Assembly (NCBI GenBank): GCA_036522515.1
Contig: DATDFQ010000049.1
Span: forward strand, 1 to 64,000
Reading direction: 5' to 3'
Source: Bacteroidota bacterium
Lineage (GTDB): Bacteria > Bacteroidota > Ignavibacteria > UBA10030 > SZUA-254
DNA length: 64,000 nt
Under the pieces are notes generated by a model that worked only from the letters and a program-made list of their open reading frames with translations, ran no database searches and was not told the origin of the DNA. Made by a program: the position numbers and the translations under genes. Positions 269 through 45,759 of the stretch are shown piece after piece. Numbering within the stretch: the stretch's first letter is position 1; each line of letters starts with the position of its first letter.

Positions 269-1255
269 TCACCCGCCGAGCATATAGATCTGCCACAAAT
301 CCCGATTGCTCATGTGAAGGACCGGCGAGAGAGCCATCTGGCCCGTTTTTCCGATACTCTTCTGAAGATACTTCAGTTCGTCGAACTTCTCCTTGACATC
401 GGGACCCAGCGGGGCTTCAAAGCCGGCGCTTCTCATCATGAGGATCCCTTTGGCGCGGATCGCCAGCTCCGTGTGGAGGCGCACCAGGCAAATCATGTCC
501 GCGATGATCTCTCCCTGAAACTGCTGCTGCAGGGTGAGGAAGTATTGGCCGATCTTCGTGAGCGCCATGTCTCCGCCGGTGATCATTTCCAGCAACTGCA
601 TATCGGTATCCATCCCTACGCCCAGCCACTTTTTCGTCGATTTTTCACTTTGATGGAACACGACCGGAAGCAGCACCAGCAACACGGCGGTCGGCACCAG
701 CGGGGAGAGGACGAAATGATTATAGAAGGAGTGCATGACGATCGCGACCCCGAGCCCGGGGAGCATGAGGGAGAGCCGGAGATTCGACGCCCGGTCGGTG
801 ATGCTCTTGGTGATGAGCGCGAACATCGCGGTCGTCCCTCCGTGCATCACGGCGGTTCCCAGCCCGCGGCTTACCCAGAGCAGGAGATGCTGGTCCGGAA
901 GCGACTCCAGATAATAGAGGTTTTCGATGAACGAGAACCCCGCCCCGACGGCGAATCCGTAGATTGCGGCATCGACCACAAATCCGATCCGCTTCCTCCG
1001 CAGGAGGTAGACGACATAGACGGATTTAAGCGCCTCCTCGAGGACCGGGGCGCCGTAGCGGGCCAGTGTAAGCGGATCGACCCCGATCCGGTCGAGGGCG
1101 AGGATGTTGAGCAGAAAGGCCGGAACCGTCACGACGCACCCGGCAAGAATCGTCACCAGCACCGACCGGATCGGAACGAGTTTGTAGCTGTCCAGAAAGA
1201 TCAGCGCCCCGAGGAAGAGAAACACGGGGAGAACGCTCACCAGGATGCTCAGCAC
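269..1255 (-). CDS. prsW: PrsW-family intramembrane metalloprotease
   Basis: A 328-residue multi-spanning membrane protein with a GTG start. Roughly residues 1-200 are hydrophobic helices carrying the PrsW family pattern: EE at 73-74 followed by ALK, FIEN with Glu111, His138 in MHGG, and His175/His180 in HSFYNH, the residues expected to bind zinc within the membrane. Residues about 205-328 form a soluble, probably cytoplasmic tail of unknown role. In Bacillus PrsW makes the first cut in the anti-sigma factor RsiW. Here the gene lies 3.2 kb downstream of a membrane anti-sigma gene on the same strand, so a similar role is plausible but inferred. The family assignment is firm; the substrate is not known. 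Confidence 0.85.
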   Translation of the reverse strand: MLSILVSVLPVFLFLGALIFLDSYKLVPIRSVLVTILAGCVVTVPAFLLNILALDRIGVDPLTLARYGAPVLEEALKSVYVVYLLRRKRIGFVVDAAIYGFAVGAGFSFIENLYYLESLPDQHLLLWVSRGLGTAVMHGGTTAMFALITKSITDRASNLRLSLMLPGLGVAIVMHSFYNHFVLSPLVPTAVLLVLLPVVFHQSEKSTKKWLGVGMDTDMQLLEMITGGDMALTKIGQYFLTLQQQFQGEIIADMICLVRLHTELAIRAKGILMMRSAGFEAPLGPDVKEKFDELKYLQKSIGKTGQMALSPVLHMSNRDLWQIYMLGG

Positions 1256-1318
1256 GGCGCGCCCCCGGTCAGGAATGGTCGGAGGATTGCGGGGGGCTCA
1301 CAGGATGGCCGCCGCGCG

Positions 1319-4285
1319 TCAAAGTATTTTCAGGGAGAACATAAACTCCCTCGTGGTCCGCTGGTCGCGTTCGAAGGCGGCCGCGTAGCCGAATGAGAGG
1401 GTCGATTCCAGCCGGGAGAAGACGACCAGCTTGAAATCGATCTGGCCGCCGGCATTCAGCAGCGTCTGTCCTTCCTCCGGCCTGTCCAGGTTCGTGCCGA
1501 TCGCCGAGGTGAAGAGCGAGAGCTGGGACCAGTTGCAGTAGAGGCTGAGAAACCCGAGCCGCCGGAACCGGAGCGGCGGGAGCACCCATTCGAGCGTCGC
1601 TTTCCCGTAGTTCGACCCTCCGATCGAGTTCAGCTCTGTTCCGGGGAAACTGTACGACTCACGGTATCGTTTGACCTCCTGAAAATCGACCCAGTTGTTT
1701 CCGAACCCGCCGAAGAAGAAATTCGCGAATGAATTGTCCCGGTCCCCCGTCGACGCCCCCGCGGATCCGCGGAACCAGAGCGATGAATGGTCGAGCGGAA
1801 GGAGAAATCCGCAGTCAAGATTGAGGTTCCCGCGGAGAAAGTCGCTTCTGTTGACATAGGTATTCAGGGCATTGAGCTGGATCCGGATCCCCTGCTCCGC
1901 TTCCACCCCGCCGAGAGAGCGGCGAAGATACCGGTATGCGAGTTTTCCGCCGAGGGTCGCGAAACGGTCGAAGGAGGCGGCGACATTCTGGAAGTCGGGG
2001 AGCCGCTCCAGGTTTCCATACCCGTTGGCGCTGAGGGTGTAATCCAGAACGCGCGGGTTGTCGCTCAGGAGGATCCCGGTATACTGGACTCCGAGCGAGT
2101 AGCCCTTGCGACTCTCTTTTGTCGGGCCGAACAGGTCGTAGAAGTCGGCTTTGTTCAGGCTCGCGCTGACCTTCCACTGCCAGAATCGATAGGTCAGGGA
2201 GAGGTGAAGCCTCTCGTTCTCGGGCAGCCCCGGACTGGGTGAATAGGTGGCGGTCAGGTCGAGATCGTGGTAGAAGAGCGGATCGAGAAAGTTTAATCGC
2301 GGACCGATCGAGGTATAATCTTTATACCCTTCCACGACGGGGTACCCCGAGGTTAATCTGAGGCTCGCCAGTCCGTTATAGGAACCGGAGTCGGTCGCGA
2401 TCGTATCGAGTTTGACCGTCAGCGGAGACGGCAGGGTCCAGCTCTTCAACACGTCGTACTTGTCGACGACATCCTGGCCGAGGTAGCGGACCGGGCTGAC
2501 ATCCTCGGTCGTCCTGTTCGCGAGCATGACGGGAACAAACCCTTTTCCGGTGTAACGGAACGCGGCGATCGAATCGGCCGAAATCTGGACCGGCCGGAAA
2601 AAACCCGTCTCGCAGTTCGAGACCGCCTCCATTTTCTTCTTCTCGAGGTCGTAGCGAAAGACGTTCGAGACCCCCGTGTAGTAGGAGGTGCCGAACAGAT
2701 ATTTCCCATCCCTGGAAAAGACGAAGTTTTCCGGGGAATTATTGACGAACTCGTAGCACACCTCGTAAGCGCTGTTCCCCTTCATCAGCTCATCGATCGG
2801 CATCCTGATCAACTGCTGCTTGCCGCTCACCTCGATCGTCGAGGCGCTCAGGGTCGAACCGTCCGGCGAGACGTCGATATCGAACATGTCCCTCCCGTAG
2901 GGGAGGTGGAGGACTTCGGACCAGTGATCGTACGGGGGGGCGAACCGGACGAGCGTCGAGAGCCCGTTATGGTGCTGGATGCCCCAGATCGATTTACGCG
3001 GGACATCGAACGCCAGATCGCCCGTCCTCGCGCGCCGGAGGAGGACGCGGGATTCATGGGTGTTCACGTTGACCGCGTTCAAGTCCCGCCAGTCCTTGCT
3101 GTTGTGGGTCGTATAAAAAAGATCCCCCGTCGCAGGGTCGTAGGCCAGCGCGCAGACGTAGTACATCGCCGGCGACGGCAGATCGCAGATTTGTTCGATC
3201 GATCCGTCGTCGATGTTGATCGCGGAGATGTGCGCGAGCTGCCCGGGAAAGTTCGTCGCGGCGTAGAGCCGCCGGGAGCTCGAGTCATAGTAGGCGCGTG
3301 AGATCGCGCCGAGGGCGCCCTGGACGATCCGCCGGTACGGGGTGAGCGGGTAGTGCCGGACCGAATCGAGATTCGCCGCCTGCCACCCGTGTTCCCATTC
3401 GATCCACCGGGACCATTCGTCATCGAGCGACACCCCGTACACCTGTTCGAACTGCGAGGCAAAATACTGCTTGCTGTCGTCGGTCCGGTTGAACCACGCA
3501 AGGAGCTTGTCGATCCCGTACTGATCGGCGAGATACGTGACAAACCGGGTGCCGTACAGGTACGAATTCTGCCCCGTTTGAAAATCGATCGTGGTTCCCT
3601 CCGACTCCAGGCCCACCACGTCGAAGAAGTAGCTGCTGTCCCGCACCATCGTTCTGAAGACCATCTCGTCGTAACCTCCGAGCACCCTTCCGATTCCGCC
3701 CGCCATCCAGGTCTCCATGAAGACGGCGATTCCTTCATGGTACCAGCGGGGCGAATACTTCCTGGGCACGGTCAGGAAACTGTAAAACATCGAGATCGGG
3801 TTGTCGGAGGACGGAGGCACCTTTCCGAGGAAGATCGACCTGTAGAGCCTGTCGGTGTGCGAGGGCTTGTCGGTGGCGACGACGTGCATGAGCTCGTGGC
3901 TCATCACCCAATTGAGCCGCTCATTGGTCGGGGAGGTTTCATACACGTACTCATACGGCTCGATTCCGAGGATCATGTAGTTGAACGGGAGGCCTGTCGC
4001 CCCGGCGTACCCGTAGTCGTCAAAATCCTGGAGCAGGATCGTGACCTTCTCCGACGGGGTATACCCGTAGGTGCGCCGGTGGAACGCGAGCGAATTTTCG
4101 AAGCACCGGCGAAGATGGGGGATGACATAGGCGTGTTGCTCGTCGTAATAGAGCAGGCGCAGATTCGCGGATTCAAGCCGGTGGAACTGGGCGGCCGAGT
4201 CCGCGCACGCAAGCAGAGACATCGAACAGAGGAGAGCCGCCCAGAGGCGGTGCGGTCCCCGTGCGGCCGTCAACCTACGATTCAT
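1319..4285 (-). CDS. Outer-membrane protein with MA-type metalloprotease, propeller and barrel domains
   Basis: 988 residues, ATG with a GGAG ribosome site five bases upstream. Residues 1-33 look like a signal peptide. Residues about 35-300 resemble the peptidase MA-like fold, with the zinc motif HELMH at 130-134 and a downstream WYHEGIAVF segment. Residues about 310-620 hold TolB/WD40-like propeller repeats (for example ISPDG-like and FSRDGKYLF). The last 350 residues alternate polar and hydrophobic strands and end in a phenylalanine-containing strand (FMFSLKIL), as in outer-membrane barrels. The gene follows the ECF sigma/anti-sigma pair on the same strand, separated by a hairpin at 4340. 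Family members occur in Bacteroidota-type genomes; the substrate is unknown. Confidence 0.75.
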   Translation of the reverse strand: MNRRLTAARGPHRLWAALLCSMSLLACADSAAQFHRLESANLRLLYYDEQHAYVIPHLRRCFENSLAFHRRTYGYTPSEKVTILLQDFDDYGYAGATGLPFNYMILGIEPYEYVYETSPTNERLNWVMSHELMHVVATDKPSHTDRLYRSIFLGKVPPSSDNPISMFYSFLTVPRKYSPRWYHEGIAVFMETWMAGGIGRVLGGYDEMVFRTMVRDSSYFFDVVGLESEGTTIDFQTGQNSYLYGTRFVTYLADQYGIDKLLAWFNRTDDSKQYFASQFEQVYGVSLDDEWSRWIEWEHGWQAANLDSVRHYPLTPYRRIVQGALGAISRAYYDSSSRRLYAATNFPGQLAHISAINIDDGSIEQICDLPSPAMYYVCALAYDPATGDLFYTTHNSKDWRDLNAVNVNTHESRVLLRRARTGDLAFDVPRKSIWGIQHHNGLSTLVRFAPPYDHWSEVLHLPYGRDMFDIDVSPDGSTLSASTIEVSGKQQLIRMPIDELMKGNSAYEVCYEFVNNSPENFVFSRDGKYLFGTSYYTGVSNVFRYDLEKKKMEAVSNCETGFFRPVQISADSIAAFRYTGKGFVPVMLANRTTEDVSPVRYLGQDVVDKYDVLKSWTLPSPLTVKLDTIATDSGSYNGLASLRLTSGYPVVEGYKDYTSIGPRLNFLDPLFYHDLDLTATYSPSPGLPENERLHLSLTYRFWQWKVSASLNKADFYDLFGPTKESRKGYSLGVQYTGILLSDNPRVLDYTLSANGYGNLERLPDFQNVAASFDRFATLGGKLAYRYLRRSLGGVEAEQGIRIQLNALNTYVNRSDFLRGNLNLDCGFLLPLDHSSLWFRGSAGASTGDRDNSFANFFFGGFGNNWVDFQEVKRYRESYSFPGTELNSIGGSNYGKATLEWVLPPLRFRRLGFLSLYCNWSQLSLFTSAIGTNLDRPEEGQTLLNAGGQIDFKLVVFSRLESTLSFGYAAAFERDQRTTREFMFSLKIL

Positions 4286-4339
4286 AAATCTCCAGGAGGT
4301 TCAATTGATGCGGTGAGCAAGCGAGGCAGTGTAAACACC

Positions 4340-4369
4340 GAGAGGAGACGGTGTTGCCCGTCTCCTCTC
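4340..4369. terminator. Perfect 12-bp stem hairpin (possible terminator or attenuator)
   Basis: GAGAGGAGACGG and its exact complement are separated by six bases. The hairpin lies between the end of the anti-sigma gene (4425) and the start of the outer-membrane protease gene (4285). The minus-strand continuation is GGTGTTTACA, only weakly U-rich, so it may slow or partly terminate read-through rather than fully separate the two genes. Confidence 0.5.
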
Positions 4370-4424
4370 TTTCCTATCATTTCGGCCTCTACGTGTTAGG
4401 TCAAACCCGATGAAGCCAACCGCT

Positions 4425-6008
4425 CTATTGCTGGTCGGAATTCGTCCGTTGATCCTGCGGTACGTTGGTCCGGCTCTCGATGTTATTGAGTCTCGATTCG
4501 AGGTTGTTCGTTCTCGAATCCGGGGGGATGTTCAGCCGGCTTTCAAGATTATTGATTCTCGATTCCAGTATCGCGGTCCGAGCTTCCACGGTGGAGCCGA
4601 TCCTGGATTCCAGATTGTCTATCCGCTGTTCGGCGGGCAGGCTGGCCGTTCTCTGCGATACATACGCTTCAACCTGCTGCAGTCTCGATTCGATCGTCGA
4701 CGCCGTCCGGTATTCCTGCGGCACGCCGATTCTGCTCTCGAGGTTATTGAGACGCTGTTCCAACGAGCCGGAGGTTCGCTGGTCAGTCGCAGGGGCGGTG
4801 CGCTGGTCAGTCGCAGGGGCGGTGCGCTGGTCGGTCGCAGGGGCCGTGCGCTGTTCGGTCACAGGGGCCGTGCGCTGTTCGGTCCACGAGGCTGTCCGCT
4901 GTTCGATATTCGCAAGGCGCGCTTCGGCCGGCAAACCTGCTGACCGTTGCATTTCCTGTGCCTCGACCTGTTGGAGCCTGGCTTCGACGGTCGGAGCCGT
5001 GCGGGCCTCAACCGGGACGTTCAGGCGGCTCTCAATATTGCTCACCCGTTCCTGGATCACCGGTGTCGCGCGTTGCTCGGCGGGAATCGACAGGCGGGAT
5101 TCGATGTTGTTTACCCGCTGATCGATCGGGAGGGCCGCTGTCCGTGAAAGTTCGGCCGTTTCCACCTGCTGCAACCTTGAATCGATGGTGTTTGCACGGA
5201 ACTCCTGGGGGACATTGAGCCGGCTCTCGATGTTGTTCAGCCGCTGCTCGACTGTCGAACCTGTGCGCTGTTCCGCCGGGATCGAAAGCCGTGCTTCCAG
5301 GTTGTCTATCCGTTGCTCGGCGGGAAGCGTCGCAGACCTCGCCAGAATCTCGGCTTCGGCCTGTTGAATCCTGCCCTCGATCGTCTCGTTTGGCACCGAT
5401 CCGGGGGTCTGCGAGATCCGGCTATCGATGTAATCGATTCTCGCCTCTATGATCGAAGTGCGTGCGTCGGGAGCCAATCTTCCTTCCATCGTCTTGATTC
5501 GATTCTCAAGCACCGAGAATTGATCCGTGGCGATGTCTGACCCGCCGAGTTTCACGTCCTTATCGGTGAGCTGGCCGGCGTTGTACTTCTTGACGCCGCC
5601 GATCGTTCCCTGAATCTGGTCGCCGACCGGCCAGGGATAGAGAAAGGCGAAGTAGACGAGTGCCACCGAGACGGCGGCCAGGACACCAACTTTGACAGCT
5701 TTGCTATGCATGGAACCCTCCTGGTTGAGTGATGTTGTGAAAAATCTCGCAACGTTCCGGAACCTGCCCGTTCGTGCTGCTGGCGGCCGGTGAAACTGGA
5801 TGGAGTTGATAATGGTATTCTTAAGATATCGCGGGGGTTCCACGGGCTTCACCGACTTGAGGATCGATCCCAGCCTGGCCAGATCGTCATACAGTTCCTG
5901 TGCCTGAGGATCCATCGCAAGACGCTCCCGGAGAAGAGCACTCTCTTCCGGGGAATTCAACCCGTCAATTTCCCTGTGAATGAGCTCGTTTGTCTGATCG
6001 TTCATCAT
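4425..6008 (-). CDS. Membrane anti-sigma factor with extracytoplasmic IESRL/EQR repeat domain
   Basis: 527 residues. Residues 1-75 resemble the N-terminal helical part of ECF anti-sigma factors but have no cysteines, so the usual zinc HxxxCxxC motif is missing. A single transmembrane helix lies at about 105-125. The rest (about 165-520) is built of heptad-like strings such as LNNIESR and LPAEQR. These form four copies of a 65-66 residue unit (start residues 209, 274, 340, 438). The third unit is stretched by five 8-residue repeats (RTAPATDQ type, residues 371-410). A long coiled coil or fibre outside the cytoplasmic membrane is expected. The start overlaps the sigma gene stop (ATGA), the usual sign of a sigma/anti-sigma pair. 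The anti-sigma role is inferred from position, topology and N-terminal pattern. Confidence 0.75.
   Translation of the reverse strand: MMNDQTNELIHREIDGLNSPEESALLRERLAMDPQAQELYDDLARLGSILKSVKPVEPPRYLKNTIINSIQFHRPPAARTGRFRNVARFFTTSLNQEGSMHSKAVKVGVLAAVSVALVYFAFLYPWPVGDQIQGTIGGVKKYNAGQLTDKDVKLGGSDIATDQFSVLENRIKTMEGRLAPDARTSIIEARIDYIDSRISQTPGSVPNETIEGRIQQAEAEILARSATLPAEQRIDNLEARLSIPAEQRTGSTVEQRLNNIESRLNVPQEFRANTIDSRLQQVETAELSRTAALPIDQRVNNIESRLSIPAEQRATPVIQERVSNIESRLNVPVEARTAPTVEARLQQVEAQEMQRSAGLPAEARLANIEQRTASWTEQRTAPVTEQRTAPATDQRTAPATDQRTAPATDQRTSGSLEQRLNNLESRIGVPQEYRTASTIESRLQQVEAYVSQRTASLPAEQRIDNLESRIGSTVEARTAILESRINNLESRLNIPPDSRTNNLESRLNNIESRTNVPQDQRTNSDQQ
4506..5384 (-). repeat. Four in-gene repeats of about 195 bp encoding a 65-residue unit
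   Basis: Units start with T(I/V)(E/D)xR(L/I)QQ(A/V)E and continue with LPxEQR, NIESRL, IPAEQR and NVPxExR blocks. Approximate positions are 5190-5384, 4992-5189, 4698-4991 and 4506-4697. The third copy is longer because of the inserted 24-bp repeats. The copies differ at many bases, so the duplications are old compared with the 24-bp array. Confidence 0.8.
4777..4896 (-). repeat. Five tandem 24-bp repeats inside the anti-sigma gene
   Basis: The unit reads CGCTGGTCAGTCGCAGGGGC plus four bases on the plus strand. The first two copies (4777-4800, 4801-4824) are identical. The third and fourth carry a few substitutions and the fifth (4873-4896) is degenerate. The length is a multiple of three, so changes in copy number keep the reading frame. 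The near identity points to recent slippage expansion. Confidence 0.9.
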
Positions 6009-6547
6009 TTAATCCCCTGCCTGCTGAGAAGTTTGTTTTTCAGCGCCTGCCTCGCTGAATAAAGTCTCGACTTCACCGTCTTGTCCGGAATATCGAGCAC
6101 ATAGCCGATCTCCGTGTAGGAGAGATCCTGAAAATGGCTCAAGACGAGAATAATCCGGTCTTCAAGCTTCAATTGCATGAGTCCATCCTCGACGATTCTC
6201 TCGAGCCTCTGCCCGTCGATGAGCTGTTCGGTTGTTTGGTCATCGGAGACAATTTCGTGGTCGAGTTCTTCATATCGCTTCTGGTGGTTTCGAAGATTCA
6301 AGGACTCGTTGACGGCGATCCGGTACATCCAGCTGAAGAACTTGTAAGAAGGGTTGTACTCGGAGAGGCGCTCGTACGCCTTCAGGAAAACCGTTTGCGT
6401 CACATCCTCGGCATCTGCAGCACGGTTGCCGATTCGGATTGCAACGTTGTACACAACCCTGTGGTACTTTTCGACTATCGATTCGAATGCCGCCCTGTTC
6501 CCTGCCAGCGTTTCCCGGACCAACAGCCGATCATCGTCAACTATCAT
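6005..6547 (-). CDS. ECF-family RNA polymerase sigma factor
   Basis: 180 residues, ATG start. Region 2 is seen at about residues 10-80 (VEKYHRVVYNVAIRI, then DAEDVTQTVFLKAYERL and FFSWMYRIAVNES), and region 4 at about 115-170 (LEDRIILVLSHFQDLSYTEI, then IPDKTVKSRLYSARQALK). Only regions 2 and 4 are present, as in group IV sigma factors. The stop overlaps the start of the repeat-bearing anti-sigma gene by four bases. The module would direct RNA polymerase to an envelope or stress regulon; the regulon is not visible here. I could not find a convincing autoregulatory promoter upstream. Confidence 0.93.
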   Translation of the reverse strand: MIVDDDRLLVRETLAGNRAAFESIVEKYHRVVYNVAIRIGNRAADAEDVTQTVFLKAYERLSEYNPSYKFFSWMYRIAVNESLNLRNHQKRYEELDHEIVSDDQTTEQLIDGQRLERIVEDGLMQLKLEDRIILVLSHFQDLSYTEIGYVLDIPDKTVKSRLYSARQALKNKLLSRQGIK

Positions 6548-6632
6548 AAGTACAAAGCAATCCTCAGAAAGTTGGTTTCAACGGCCCCCTGGAATGGATT
6601 AAATCCTGAAAACTCCCCCTCACCCCCGAAAA

Positions 6633-6917
6633 TCAGCGAATTTCGAAGACCCTGTCGAAGCCTGCGTACCCGAAAATATCCTTGATGTGCTTATTCAGGT
6701 TGACCAGGGCGAGTTTATGGCCGGATTCGCTCAGCCTTTTTTGGGTCGCCAGGAGCACCCCCATGCCTGCGCTCGATATATACTCCAGTTCCCGGAAATC
6801 GATGACGCTGGAGGTGCTGATTTTGTCCAGAACCTCTTTCGCAGCGGCAACCTGCGAGGCGTCGAATCTCCCGACCAGCTGGACCTCGTTGTTGCTTCCA
6901 ACCTTAGCGCTGAACAT
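6633..6917 (-). CDS. STAS-domain anti-sigma-factor antagonist
   Basis: 94 residues, a single STAS domain. The segment YISSAGMGVLL (about residues 46-56) holds the serine that is phosphorylated in SpoIIAA/RsbV-type antagonists, followed by the helix RLSESGHKLALVNL. Third gene of a three-gene operon; its start overlaps the end of the kinase gene by 14 bases, suggesting coupled translation. It should bind the unphosphorylated partner kinase and release whatever that kinase holds. The cognate sigma factor or effector cannot be named from the window. Confidence 0.88.
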   Translation of the reverse strand: MFSAKVGSNNEVQLVGRFDASQVAAAKEVLDKISTSSVIDFRELEYISSAGMGVLLATQKRLSESGHKLALVNLNKHIKDIFGYAGFDRVFEIR

Positions 6918-7323
6918 CGTCCCGCCCCAAATTCTTCGTGATAATTATTCTCCCCACCCGGTCGGAATACTCGTACCGCATGCCATCCACCATTTTGCGG
7001 ACAAGGTGAACCCCGAGCCCGCCGATTTTTCTCTCCTCGAGAGGCAGGTCGACCTTTGCATCGGGAACCTTTGTCACATCGAATTCATCGACATCGAAAT
7101 CCGTCAACTGCACGACGATCGAATCCTGATCCTTGTGGAGGCTCACCGCGATCTCGCTCCGCCCCCCGCGGTTGTACTTCATCAGGTTTGTGAACAGCTC
7201 CTCGATGACGAATTGCAACGAATATGCCTCGGAGTTGTCGATCCCGTTCTGGGACATGAATTCCGTGATGTACTCGAACACGGAATCCAACGATGCCATT
7301 TCTCTCGGGAAGTGCTTTTCCAT
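6904..7323 (-). CDS. RsbW/SpoIIAB-type serine kinase anti-sigma factor
   Basis: 139 residues forming one GHKL (HATPase) domain. The N box is EELFTNLMKYN (about residues 46-56) and the G2 box is GGLGVHLVRKMVD (about 103-115). These small kinases phosphorylate a STAS antagonist and sequester a sigma factor or other effector. It starts directly after the stop of the upstream STAS gene with no gap and overlaps the downstream STAS gene. Being sandwiched between two STAS genes suggests one kinase serving two antagonists, but that is inference. Confidence 0.88.
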   Translation of the reverse strand: MEKHFPREMASLDSVFEYITEFMSQNGIDNSEAYSLQFVIEELFTNLMKYNRGGRSEIAVSLHKDQDSIVVQLTDFDVDEFDVTKVPDAKVDLPLEERKIGGLGVHLVRKMVDGMRYEYSDRVGRIIITKNLGRDDVQR

Positions 7324-7707
7324 TCAAGATCGGGTCGTGCCCGGACCCGTGGGGGCCTGGCGGCCGGCGGTCCCATATCCTGCCAGGGCATGCTCCATCG
7401 TGTCGTGAAAATCGAACACCCGTATCAGCTGGGTCATTTCGAACAGGCTCCGGACTCCCGGGTTTGCACAAGCCAGTCGCAAATCCCCCCCGGCCTTGCG
7501 CAGCGTCGTCAGCGTGGAGACCAGAGATCCGAGTCCGGAACTGTTGATATGGTGGACTGCCCGGAGATCGACGACAAACCAACGGTTCCCGTCTGCCAGA
7601 AGATCCTGAACGTTCGAGGAAAGGTTCGAGCGGTCCATTTCGCCGATGAAATCCCCCTCGAGCGATAAGACCGCGACGCCACTCTGGACCTGCCGGCTAA
7701 TCTTCAT
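7324..7707 (-). CDS. STAS-domain anti-sigma-factor antagonist
   Basis: 127 residues, first gene of the partner-switch operon. The STAS core includes HHINSSGLGSLVSTL (about residues 52-66) with the conserved serine pair, and residues 1-20 give the first strands (VAVLSLEGDFIGEMD). Residues after about 110 (GTAGRQAPTGPGTTRS) are a flexible tail not seen in the second STAS protein. The promoter at 7740-7768 is well placed. No PP2C phosphatase, which normally reactivates such antagonists, is encoded nearby. Confidence 0.88.
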   Translation of the reverse strand: MKISRQVQSGVAVLSLEGDFIGEMDRSNLSSNVQDLLADGNRWFVVDLRAVHHINSSGLGSLVSTLTTLRKAGGDLRLACANPGVRSLFEMTQLIRVFDFHDTMEHALAGYGTAGRQAPTGPGTTRS

Positions 7708-29538: not shown

Positions 29539-29604
29539 ACCCCCGGCGCGAGAGCGGGATGGGACGGGGTTTCATCCTGATATTGTCATCCTGGGTCCTC
29601 CCAT

Positions 29605-29682
29605 GTCATCCTGAGCGAAGCGAAGGATCTTCCCGGCCGAACGAACGGGATCCTTCGGTCGCTACGCTCCCTCAGGATGACA
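29605..29682. repeat. Family B palindromic repeat, copy 2
   Basis: Left arm GTCATCCTGAGCGAAGCG, right arm CGCTCCCTCAGGATGAC, with an inner pair AAGGATCTTCC/GGGATCCTTCG. A broken extra left arm (GTCATCCTGGG) lies just before it at 29585. It lies between the M28 gene and the transporter operon; with its flanks it accounts for most of the 280-base gap. Confidence 0.8.
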
Positions 29683-34435: not shown

Positions 34436-34470
34436 CCTCCCTGCTTTGTCGTCCCGGCAAGGAGTCGGTA

Positions 34471-34541
34471 GCCGCAGCCTTTAGGCTGCGTCCATGACAC
34501 CGCGATCTGAAGATCGCGGCTACCAATACCTCGAGCGAACC
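34471..34541. repeat. Family A palindromic repeat, copy 3
   Basis: GGTAGCCGCAGCCTTTAGGC continuing to TGCG, then CCGCGATCTGAAGATCGCGG and GCTACC. It lies between the convergent ends of livF and the APC permease gene and abuts a partial family B element. Confidence 0.75.
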
Positions 34542-36466: not shown

Positions 36467-36544
36467 GTCATCCTGAGGGAGCGTAGCGACCGAAGGATCT
36501 CGTCTTTCCGACCTGCAAGATCCTTCGCTTCGCTCAGGATGACA
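36467..36544. repeat. Family B palindromic repeat, copy 4
   Basis: Left arm GTCATCCTGAGGGAGCG, right arm CGCTTCGCTCAGGATGAC, with inner AAGGATCTCG/CAAGATCCTT. It lies 36 bases past the stop of the GspE/PilB gene and before the DUF2007 promoter. It has no A partner. Confidence 0.8.
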
Positions 36545-45532: not shown

Positions 45533-45676
45533 TGGGTGAATATCAACACCCGAGCCGAAAACCCGCAGCCTAAAGGCTGCGGCTACCAAGCCCGAGGCAT
45601 CGATAGCCGCGACCTTCAGGTCGCGGGACAAGAAGGCAACGGAAATCAGCCAGTACCCGCAAAGCGGGCGGCGTCT
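45533..45676. repeat. Family A palindromic repeat, copy 4 (longest)
   Basis: Modules in order: GGGTGAATATCAACACCCG, CCGCAGCCTAAAGGCTGCGG, GCTACC, a CCGCGACCTTCAGGTCGCGG palindrome, then CAGCCAGTACCCGC and GCGGGCGG. A partial extra copy of the first module (TGAATTTCAACCCG) lies at 45493. It matches copy 2 along its length, with an added CGCGACCT module. It fills much of the 432-base gap between divergent genes. Confidence 0.8.
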
Positions 45677-45682
45677 TATTTT

Positions 45683-45759
45683 GTCATCCTGAGCGAAGCG
45701 AAGGATCTCGCAGATCGGAAAGGTGAGATCCTTCGGTCGCTACGCTCCCTCAGGATGAC
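45683..45759. repeat. Family B palindromic repeat, copy 5
   Basis: Left arm GTCATCCTGAGCGAAGCG, right arm CGCTCCCTCAGGATGAC, inner AAGGATCTCG/GAGATCCTT. It starts six bases after the A element and ends 12 bases before the promoter of the tyrosine operon. Confidence 0.8.

Follow-up and report, generated by a model that had tools for sequence, protein, structure and literature searches.

Gene cluster and its conservation

The window analysed here is a stretch of 64,000 nucleotides from a Bacteroidota bacterium (contig DATDFQ010000049.1). As an earlier sequence-only reading had proposed, genes for an ECF sigma factor, a putative anti-sigma factor, an MA-type outer-membrane (OM) protein and a PrsW protease lie co-directionally on its minus strand at 6547-269. 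This four-gene block is conserved but had been drawn too short, as genes for HATPase_c_2 and STAS-domain proteins lie directly upstream (6633-7707). The genes are:

7324..7707, minus strand: STAS-domain protein, first of the upstream accessory genes (PF01740, 6.9e-15)
6904..7323, minus strand: RsbW-like HATPase_c_2 protein, accessory, position kept in many related clusters (PF13581, 6.1e-18)
6633..6917, minus strand: STAS-domain protein (RsbV-like), accessory, position kept in many related clusters (PF13466, 1.3e-11)
6005..6547, minus strand: ECF sigma factor, 180 aa (Sigma70_r2, 2.1e-15; Sigma70_r4_2, 1.4e-10)
4425..6008, minus strand: 527-aa ORF, putative anti-sigma factor (aa 1 to ~98) fused to a tether (aa 100-527), separate genes in relatives
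1319..4285, minus strand: OM protein, 988 aa, with signal sequence, MA zinc-protease domain and predicted TolB-like propeller and BamA-like barrel
269..1255, minus strand: PrsW intramembrane protease, 328 aa (PF13367, 3.4e-23)

The HATPase_c_2 and STAS genes are part of the cluster in many, but not all, lineages, and the idea that these partner-switch genes are essential was rejected, as they are absent from many Bacteroidales clusters.

The earlier reading had named the neighbourhood in related genomes as a point on which it could fail, and the outcome favors it. Among the 32 order-level genomes with PrsW or the OM protein, orthologues of both occur together in 28 and only one of them in 4 (Fisher p = 5e-20); the window's own genome has a single PrsW, and both observations argue that the association is not due to chance. 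PrsW lies directly 3' of the OM protein gene in 46 of 69 loci and within the locus in 58, and contigs whose labels span about ten phyla contain the cluster; most of the loci come from MAGs. The full sigma-anti-sigma-PrsW set is missing in 13 of the 38 loci with both flanks, the OM protein-PrsW pair is also found without the sigma pair, and at loci without adjacent sigma and anti-sigma genes the tether, the OM protein and PrsW are kept together. In total, synteny and co-occurrence across relatives support the proposal that the genes form a single conserved functional unit.

Two proteases, their putative clients and a common box

Within the genes for the OM protein and the fused ORF we distinguish the following elements:

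3884..3898, minus strand: HELMH zinc-binding motif, aa 130-134, with third-ligand candidate E184 at 3736-3734
5709..5722, minus strand: internal Shine-Dalgarno sequence AGGAGG (5722-5717) and in-frame tether ATG (5711-5709), inside the fused ORF
5625..5705, minus strand: single transmembrane (TM) segment, aa 102-128, from hydropathy
5547..5609, minus strand: GT box GTIGGVKKYNAGQLTDKDVKL, membrane-proximal periplasmic motif, inside the fused ORF

Both features by which the OM protein had first been recognized hold up, in that the HExxH residues of the HELMH motif are invariant in relatives and the barrel is present in the predicted fold. H130, E131, H134, E184 and G185 are invariant in 41 OM proteins. 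Members of the family match PD40, Peptidase_MA_2 (5 of 41 at E<=0.001) and Omp85_2 (2 of 41); because the window protein scores 22.8 bits against Peptidase_MA_2, below the cut-off of 32.4, the case for an MA domain also draws on its invariant HExxH and EG motifs and on the fold. In the AlphaFold2 model (pLDDT 88, pTM 0.85) a barrel of ~16 strands is predicted at aa 643-987, and its matches include TolB (Z 23) and, among the Foldseek hits, BamA (14% identity). We read the OM protein as a putative MA protease that also has a TolB-like propeller and, at its end, a BamA-like barrel, with propeller and barrel assigned by predicted fold. When solved structures were searched by sequence with profiles of the OM protein and of PrsW, no match came up.

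The PrsW gene is borne out by a Pfam PrsW-protease score of 82.6 bits (cut-off 23.5) and by E73, E74, K77, E111, N112, H138, H175 and N179, which make up the EExxK, E-N and His motifs and are invariant in 39 proteins. The protein scores 37.7 bits against the NCBIfam PrsW equivalog NF033739 and misses its cut-off of 225; by its sequence it is a member of the PrsW superfamily outside this equivalog, and it has a conserved C-terminal extension of ~120 aa. The catalytic residues of the OM protein and of PrsW are kept in every relative examined.

The sigma factor has ECF regions 2 and 4, with PF04542, PF08281 and TIGR02937 all above cut-off, and the start of the following ORF overlaps its stop by 4 nt. 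Pfam finds no anti-sigma family domain in the window protein, and among 36 anti-sigmas of the family the matches are weak (zf-HC2 in 6/36, DUF3379 in 5, RseA_N in 3); its identity as a putative anti-sigma factor is based on position, fold layout and these weak matches. In the predicted model of the unfused anti-sigma of a same-genus relative, helices span residues 4-69 and a TM segment residues 99-119. The anti-sigmas appear to consist of a cytoplasmic helical domain, one TM segment and a box in a flexible linker (pLDDT<50), which in the predicted structure lies between the TM segment and an Ig-like domain. Foldseek/VIA matches of this periplasmic domain are scattered among numerous unrelated proteins of beta-sandwich fold, adhesins and pore-forming toxins among them, and were dropped as a guide to function, so that we read the domain as an Ig-like fold only. 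The anti-sigma appears to be laid out like a substrate of regulated intramembrane proteolysis, in line with the original proposal.

The box has a G-[TSA]-hydrophobic core common to anti-sigmas and tethers. Its core occurs in 36/36 anti-sigmas, in the alignment of which Gly134 is the sole invariant column, and the box lies ~10 aa past the hydrophobic segment in 57 of 66 genes directly 5' of the OM protein gene; in other ECF partners, used as controls, it was found in 0/28. The box could be bound by something other than a protease.

The sequence-only reading had described a repeat-bearing anti-sigma factor. A 527-aa ORF with repeats does adjoin the sigma gene, but this ORF is a recurrent fusion with what is otherwise a separate tether gene: anti-sigma and tether are encoded separately in most relatives, including one of the same genus (G014) and G008, G010, G011 and G007, and the fused or separate state has changed at least five times on the OM-protein tree. 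The tether is a one-pass membrane protein with a long low-complexity repeat tail, the sequence of which varies between lineages without visible constraint. Pfam matches to these tails were discarded as scattered chance matches to low-complexity sequence; in nearly all there is no distinct stretch. Because the hydrophobic segment of some Bacteroidales tethers ends in a lipobox-like Cys, these may be lipoproteins anchored in either membrane. The internal ribosome-binding site and ATG of the tether are kept in 9/9 fused ORFs; in the same ORFs such a site occurs in 11 of 100 35-codon windows, a background count that should include most of the nine. As the internal start is retained in the single ORF of the window, that ORF probably gives rise to both the anti-sigma-tether fusion and free tether.

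Promoters and transcription units

Three elements outside the coding sequences bear on expression of the cluster:

7768-7740: housekeeping-like promoter TTGACT-17-TACTAT, 5' of the first STAS gene (7324..7707)
6549..6574, minus strand: ECF-type promoter CAACTT-N14-TGTACT, immediately 5' of the sigma start
4340..4369, minus strand: hairpin with a 12-bp stem in the tether-OM protein gap, terminator-like in relatives but with no T run on the minus strand in the window

The pattern AACYT-N13-18-GTA precedes the sigma gene in 32 of 42 loci (2.2 expected) and the strict promoter form in 18 (0.05 expected), and the sigma mRNA is possibly leaderless. Separate tether genes also carry a sigma-type promoter of their own, in 19/44 loci, while the locus-wide promoter scan found no ECF-type promoter above chance 5' of the OM protein or PrsW genes. 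Terminator-like sequences were found in 15/44 tether-OM protein gaps (0.1 expected) and in 0/46 OM protein-PrsW gaps, so that a terminator often stands between the sigma/anti-sigma/tether unit and the OM protein-PrsW unit. A search for the regulon with the strict promoter gave the sigma promoter alone in the window's own genome, with no further target, and across 11 genomes a match total close to that of the reversed-pattern control; for this reason we claim no regulon. Unless the regulon is very small or its sites are looser, the lack of further strict targets would be unexpected for a stress response.

A candidate proteolytic circuit between two membranes

Combining gene order, motif conservation and promoter data, we favor on balance a model in which the cluster encodes a conserved envelope-monitoring circuit operating by regulated proteolysis between the two membranes: (i) the OM protein would keep its protease and propeller domains in the periplasm and contact the tether tail, so that the tether would act as a link or buffer between both proteases; (ii) on disturbance of the outer membrane, the wall or their spacing, the OM protease and PrsW would process box-bearing clients, with PrsW cutting at the membrane-proximal box; (iii) the trimmed anti-sigma would be degraded by housekeeping proteases, freeing the sigma factor to make more sigma, anti-sigma and tether; and (iv) new tether would re-occupy the proteases, or repair the link, and turn the response off. 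Because their genes lie beyond the terminator and lack a sigma promoter, the OM protein and PrsW would fix the threshold of detection and not form part of the response. At some loci no sigma and anti-sigma genes adjoin those for the tether, the OM protein and PrsW, so the role of this triad need not be sigma control; and as the triad is the minimal unit there, the tether is no less probable than the anti-sigma as primary client of both proteases.

A more specific version of this model, which we put forward tentatively as a possibility, is a widespread two-membrane proteolytic rheostat in which the box marks PrsW clients and a sigma-induced tether with an arbitrary tail, its length or presence alone mattering, would serve between the OM protease and PrsW as a ruler or decoy; the nested start would, in several lineages, give fusion and free tether, and with them brake and feedback from one ORF.

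The persistence of the triad without adjacent sigma and anti-sigma genes also fits a reading, somewhat doubtful in our view, in which the tether itself is the end product, to be released, exported or assembled by PrsW and the OM protein as an envelope stabilizer or surface fiber, the sigma factor merely switches on its production on demand, and the box of the anti-sigma reports the idle state. The tether's own promoters agree with this, as do the BamA/Omp85-like barrel, a fold serving translocation or assembly, and the proposal that PrsW domains release exported proteins (PMC3482391). A tail that varies between lineages without visible constraint would, however, be surprising in a product of specific function, and recurrent fusion with the anti-sigma ties the tether to the signal path.

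Alternatively, a fused anti-sigma-tether could be pulled or released mechanically by binding to the OM barrel protein, with PrsW and the MA domain serving turnover of spent proteins. In Bacteroidota, Dma anti-sigmas, with an N-terminal anti-sigma domain, a TM segment, a long disordered tether and an OM barrel, form an established class (PMC13088901), and the same parts occur here separately or partly fused. Nevertheless, all catalytic residues are kept in both proteases over very large distances and PrsW is kept even without an adjacent sigma gene, which suggests that proteolysis is central and makes such a non-proteolytic sensor improbable. That an ordinary ECF/anti-sigma pair merely lies beside a separate OM protein-PrsW quality-control pair would agree with two transcription units, divided by a terminator after the tether with no sigma promoter there, and with OM protein-PrsW pairs lacking a sigma pair, but is highly improbable given that the neighborhood is the same phylum after phylum while the flanks change and that the box is common to anti-sigma and tether and not to other ECF partners.

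The closest known systems are PrsW-RsiW and the Dma anti-sigmas. In Bacillus subtilis, the SigW system, which works by regulated proteolysis, combines a PrsW-family protease with an ECF sigma factor, its one-pass anti-sigma RsiW and a promoter of the AAC...GTA class, each with a counterpart here, the anti-sigma a putative one. Unlike that system, the one favored here would act in a two-membrane setting, prsW is clustered with the sigma pair, PrsW has the long conserved C-terminal extension, and a tether with a repeat tail is added along with an OM MA-protease/TolB/BamA-like partner. In Escherichia coli, the sigma-E pathway relays a periplasmic cue by stepwise cutting of the one-pass RseA by DegS and RseP. 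The proposed circuit would likewise relay a periplasmic cue by cutting a one-pass anti-sigma stepwise, and a few anti-sigmas weakly match RseA_N; in contrast, an OM-anchored metalloprotease and PrsW, and not DegS, are the candidates for the site-1 cut, and no RseB-like gene was seen in the cluster.

The favored circuit would share with Dma an anti-sigma domain, a TM segment and a long tether in the periplasm, and in both an OM beta-barrel would take part in the pathway. It differs in that the barrel belongs to a separate protein with protease and propeller domains, the cluster includes PrsW, the genes for anti-sigma and tether are mostly separate, and the spread extends far beyond Bacteroidota. 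The window protein itself is not a Dma dual membrane-spanning anti-sigma, since it ends in repeats at aa 527 without a barrel. WD40-Omp85 and metalloprotease-Omp85 subfamilies join a TolB-like propeller or a metalloprotease domain to an Omp85-type barrel (Heinz and Lithgow 2014, PMC4104836); compared with the subfamilies as given in the parts of that paper used here, which hold no link to sigma factors or PrsW, the OM protein has propeller and metalloprotease in one protein, the latter of MA/HExxH type and not PF00149. In polymorphic toxin export, PrsW is fused to toxin domains and paired with long repeat-bearing proteins (PMC3482391); the pairing recurs here, whereas no toxin domain was seen and PrsW is separate, beside a sigma circuit.

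An open-access literature search gave no paper linking PrsW to an OM protease or to this cluster, and the circuit looks like an undescribed way for two-membrane cells to report envelope trouble to their genes. Its presence in contigs with the labels of about ten phyla suggests an old envelope-sensing system that annotation has overlooked, since no family model covers the tether and its tail is free to vary. If the model is correct, PrsW gains a role in two-membrane bacteria, gene control is tied directly to an OM metalloprotease, and the box becomes a conserved candidate for a recognition motif that is open to mutation. Through the box, the nested start and the promoter, the mechanism lends itself to direct tests.

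Gene order and its distribution

The window opens contig C49 of a 3.5-Mb genome that is 99.9% complete, and the four genes that the sequence-only reading had combined into an envelope-stress circuit (sigma, anti-sigma, outer-membrane (OM) protease and PrsW) lie exactly where that reading had placed them.

Features of the cluster in the window
7707-7324, minus strand: STAS gene
7323-6904, minus strand: HATPase_c_2 gene
6917-6633, minus strand: second STAS gene
6574-6549, minus strand: ECF-type promoter of sigma
6547-6005, minus strand: ECF sigma gene
6008-4425, minus strand: 527-aa ORF, anti-sigma-tether fusion
4285-1319, minus strand: OM protein gene
1255-269, minus strand: PrsW gene

Scanning an OM-protein alignment against one genome per species gave 192 relatives. 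Among the best 80 of these, PrsW is encoded directly downstream of the OM protein on the same strand in 46 of the 69 loci with at least 900 bp downstream and somewhere in the locus in 58 of the 69, and sigma, anti-sigma and PrsW are all present in 25/38 loci with both flanks. Several Bacteroidales instead have PrsW upstream of sigma. Of 98 order-level genomes, 28 have strong matches to both PrsW and the OM protein, and four (1 and 3) to just one of the two (p = 5e-20, which overstates the case because related genomes are not independent). We consider it almost certain that the sigma, anti-sigma, tether, OM-protein and PrsW genes form one functional unit.

The relatives, nearly all MAGs of which some may carry wrong taxon labels, are titled Ignavibacteria, Bacteroidales, KSB1, Latescibacterota, Eisenbacteria, Krumholzibacteria, Calditrichaeota, Acidobacteria, Aminicenantes, Marinimicrobia, Gemmatimonadota, and Beta- and Gammaproteobacteria; the nearest named record is L095, a contig of the congeneric MAG G014 labelled Ignavibacteria. 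G012 (99% complete, same genus as G011) has no sigma orthologue, tether, OM protein or PrsW, a joint absence that looks like loss or gain of the cluster as a block. Upstream of sigma, a partner-switch-like STAS-HATPase-STAS set (6633-7707) follows a housekeeping-like promoter at 7768-7740; such genes lie upstream in many related clusters and are missing from many Bacteroidales clusters.

The tether and its fusion to the anti-sigma

A tether gene immediately precedes the OM-protein gene in 57/66 loci, i.e. one encoding a hydrophobic anchor, approximately 10 residues, a G[TAS][IFMVL] box (usually GTIG..KY..Q...D-V/I-.-L) and a tail of 100 to 1,100 residues, a layout found in 4% of shuffled controls. 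None of the Pfam models covers anchor and box. The tails are lineage-specific, often tandem repeats, and very unlike each other (e.g. GNAAGNAA, RGDGRGDAR and NREFASMLA). The same layout occurs at eight loci without an adjoining sigma pair (L125, L140, L145, L158, L164, L169, L171 and L172). We regard tether, OM protein and PrsW as the core triad of the cluster. In some Bacteroidales (L127, L130, L132, L135 and L138) the anchor terminates in a lipobox-like Cys and the spacing to the box is unchanged at about 10 residues, suggesting that these tethers may be lipoproteins. In one Bacteroidales-like cluster (L137:6974-9736) a tandem pair of tether genes separates the anti-sigma gene from the OM-protein gene.

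The repeats and the anti-sigma part of the previously described "repeat-bearing anti-sigma" are both present, but they belong to two fused genes rather than to a single ordinary anti-sigma. In G014, G008, G010, G011 and G007 two separate genes occupy this position, one for an anti-sigma of ~260 aa that carries a single TM and a periplasmic domain, the other for a one-pass tether with a repeat tail. In the window, the first ~98 residues of the anti-sigma continue in frame into the tether, and its own TM and periplasmic domain are absent. G009, G013 and several relatives at order level also have fusions; on the OM-protein tree the state changed at least five times, and the fused window locus and the unfused L095 are sisters with full support. 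Directly before the tether TM, 9/9 fused ORFs keep an ATG in frame together with a Shine-Dalgarno-like sequence. When these ORFs are divided into 35-codon windows, only 11 of 100 windows contain such a site, and most of the nine should be among the 11. Each fused gene therefore likely makes two products.

Transcription units

The ECF-type promoter AAC[CT]T-N13-18-GTA precedes sigma in 32/42 loci (2.2 expected) and tethers in 19/44 (2.7 expected); for HATPase, OM protein, PrsW and anti-sigma, upstream matches do not exceed chance. Between tether and OM protein, 15/44 loci have a terminator-like hairpin (0.1 expected), and between OM protein and PrsW none has one. The window hairpin between tether and OM protein has no T run on this strand. 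From these patterns, sigma probably activates its own gene and those of the anti-sigma and the tether, and the proteases form a separate unit. The window promoter ends almost at the sigma ATG and the -10 part nearly touches the ATG in relatives as well, suggesting that sigma mRNA may be leaderless.

A shared box and proposed regulated proteolysis

In the predicted structure of the OM protein (pLDDT 88), three parts can be told apart: an MA domain made of helices, a propeller that closely resembles TolB (Z 23.1, rmsd 2.6 over 240 residues), and a C-terminal barrel whose structural matches include BamA. Relatives match PD40, Peptidase_MA_2 and Omp85_2, and all 41 proteins compared share H130, E131, H134 and E184. 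Domains N-terminal to a C-terminal barrel are periplasmic as a rule, and the protease domain would thus face the tether. The window PrsW belongs to the PrsW superfamily and is not the NCBIfam PrsW equivalog; EExxK, E-N and His residues are kept in 39 proteins, and a conserved C-terminal extension reaches past the NCBIfam model.

In 36/36 anti-sigmas tested a G-[T/S/A]-hydrophobic box follows the TM, usually 11-17 residues on, although a few of the positions, which were assigned automatically, are inaccurate. Its Gly134 is the sole invariant column of the 36-sequence alignment, and the predicted structure places the box between the TM and an Ig-like domain, in a linker modelled with low confidence. 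None of 28 TM-bearing proteins encoded next to other ECF sigmas, in this genome and its relatives, has the box. That the otherwise unrelated anti-sigma and tether, two putative clients adjoining PrsW, both carry it is the best indication of a shared site of recognition or cleavage, and because the box lies close to the membrane we favor PrsW as the protease that would use it.

The best reading of the cluster is that box-bearing clients would undergo regulated proteolysis, in which the tether would link or buffer OM protease and PrsW and the sigma loop would replenish anti-sigma and tether. In the main alternative, the protease machine processes the tether, which is itself the product. Taken step by step, the anti-sigma is probably a client of PrsW, participation of the OM protease in signalling is only a little less probable, and a role of the tether as feedback buffer or ruler is a tentative suggestion that we consider rather doubtful. 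Assignment of the window anti-sigma to Dma was rejected because the barrel, which in Dma is part of the anti-sigma polypeptide, here belongs to a separate protein; the cluster may nevertheless work like Dma.

Two repeats also occur in the window: CTTCGCTTCGCTCAGGATGACA, a piece of a dispersed repeat, in four exact copies (184-205, 29604-29625, 36523-36544 and 45682-45703; 0 expected), and the palindromic GGTAGGCGCAGGCTTTAGCCTGCG at 50-73, 34467-34490 and 45564-45587, as one exact copy and two with 3 mismatches.
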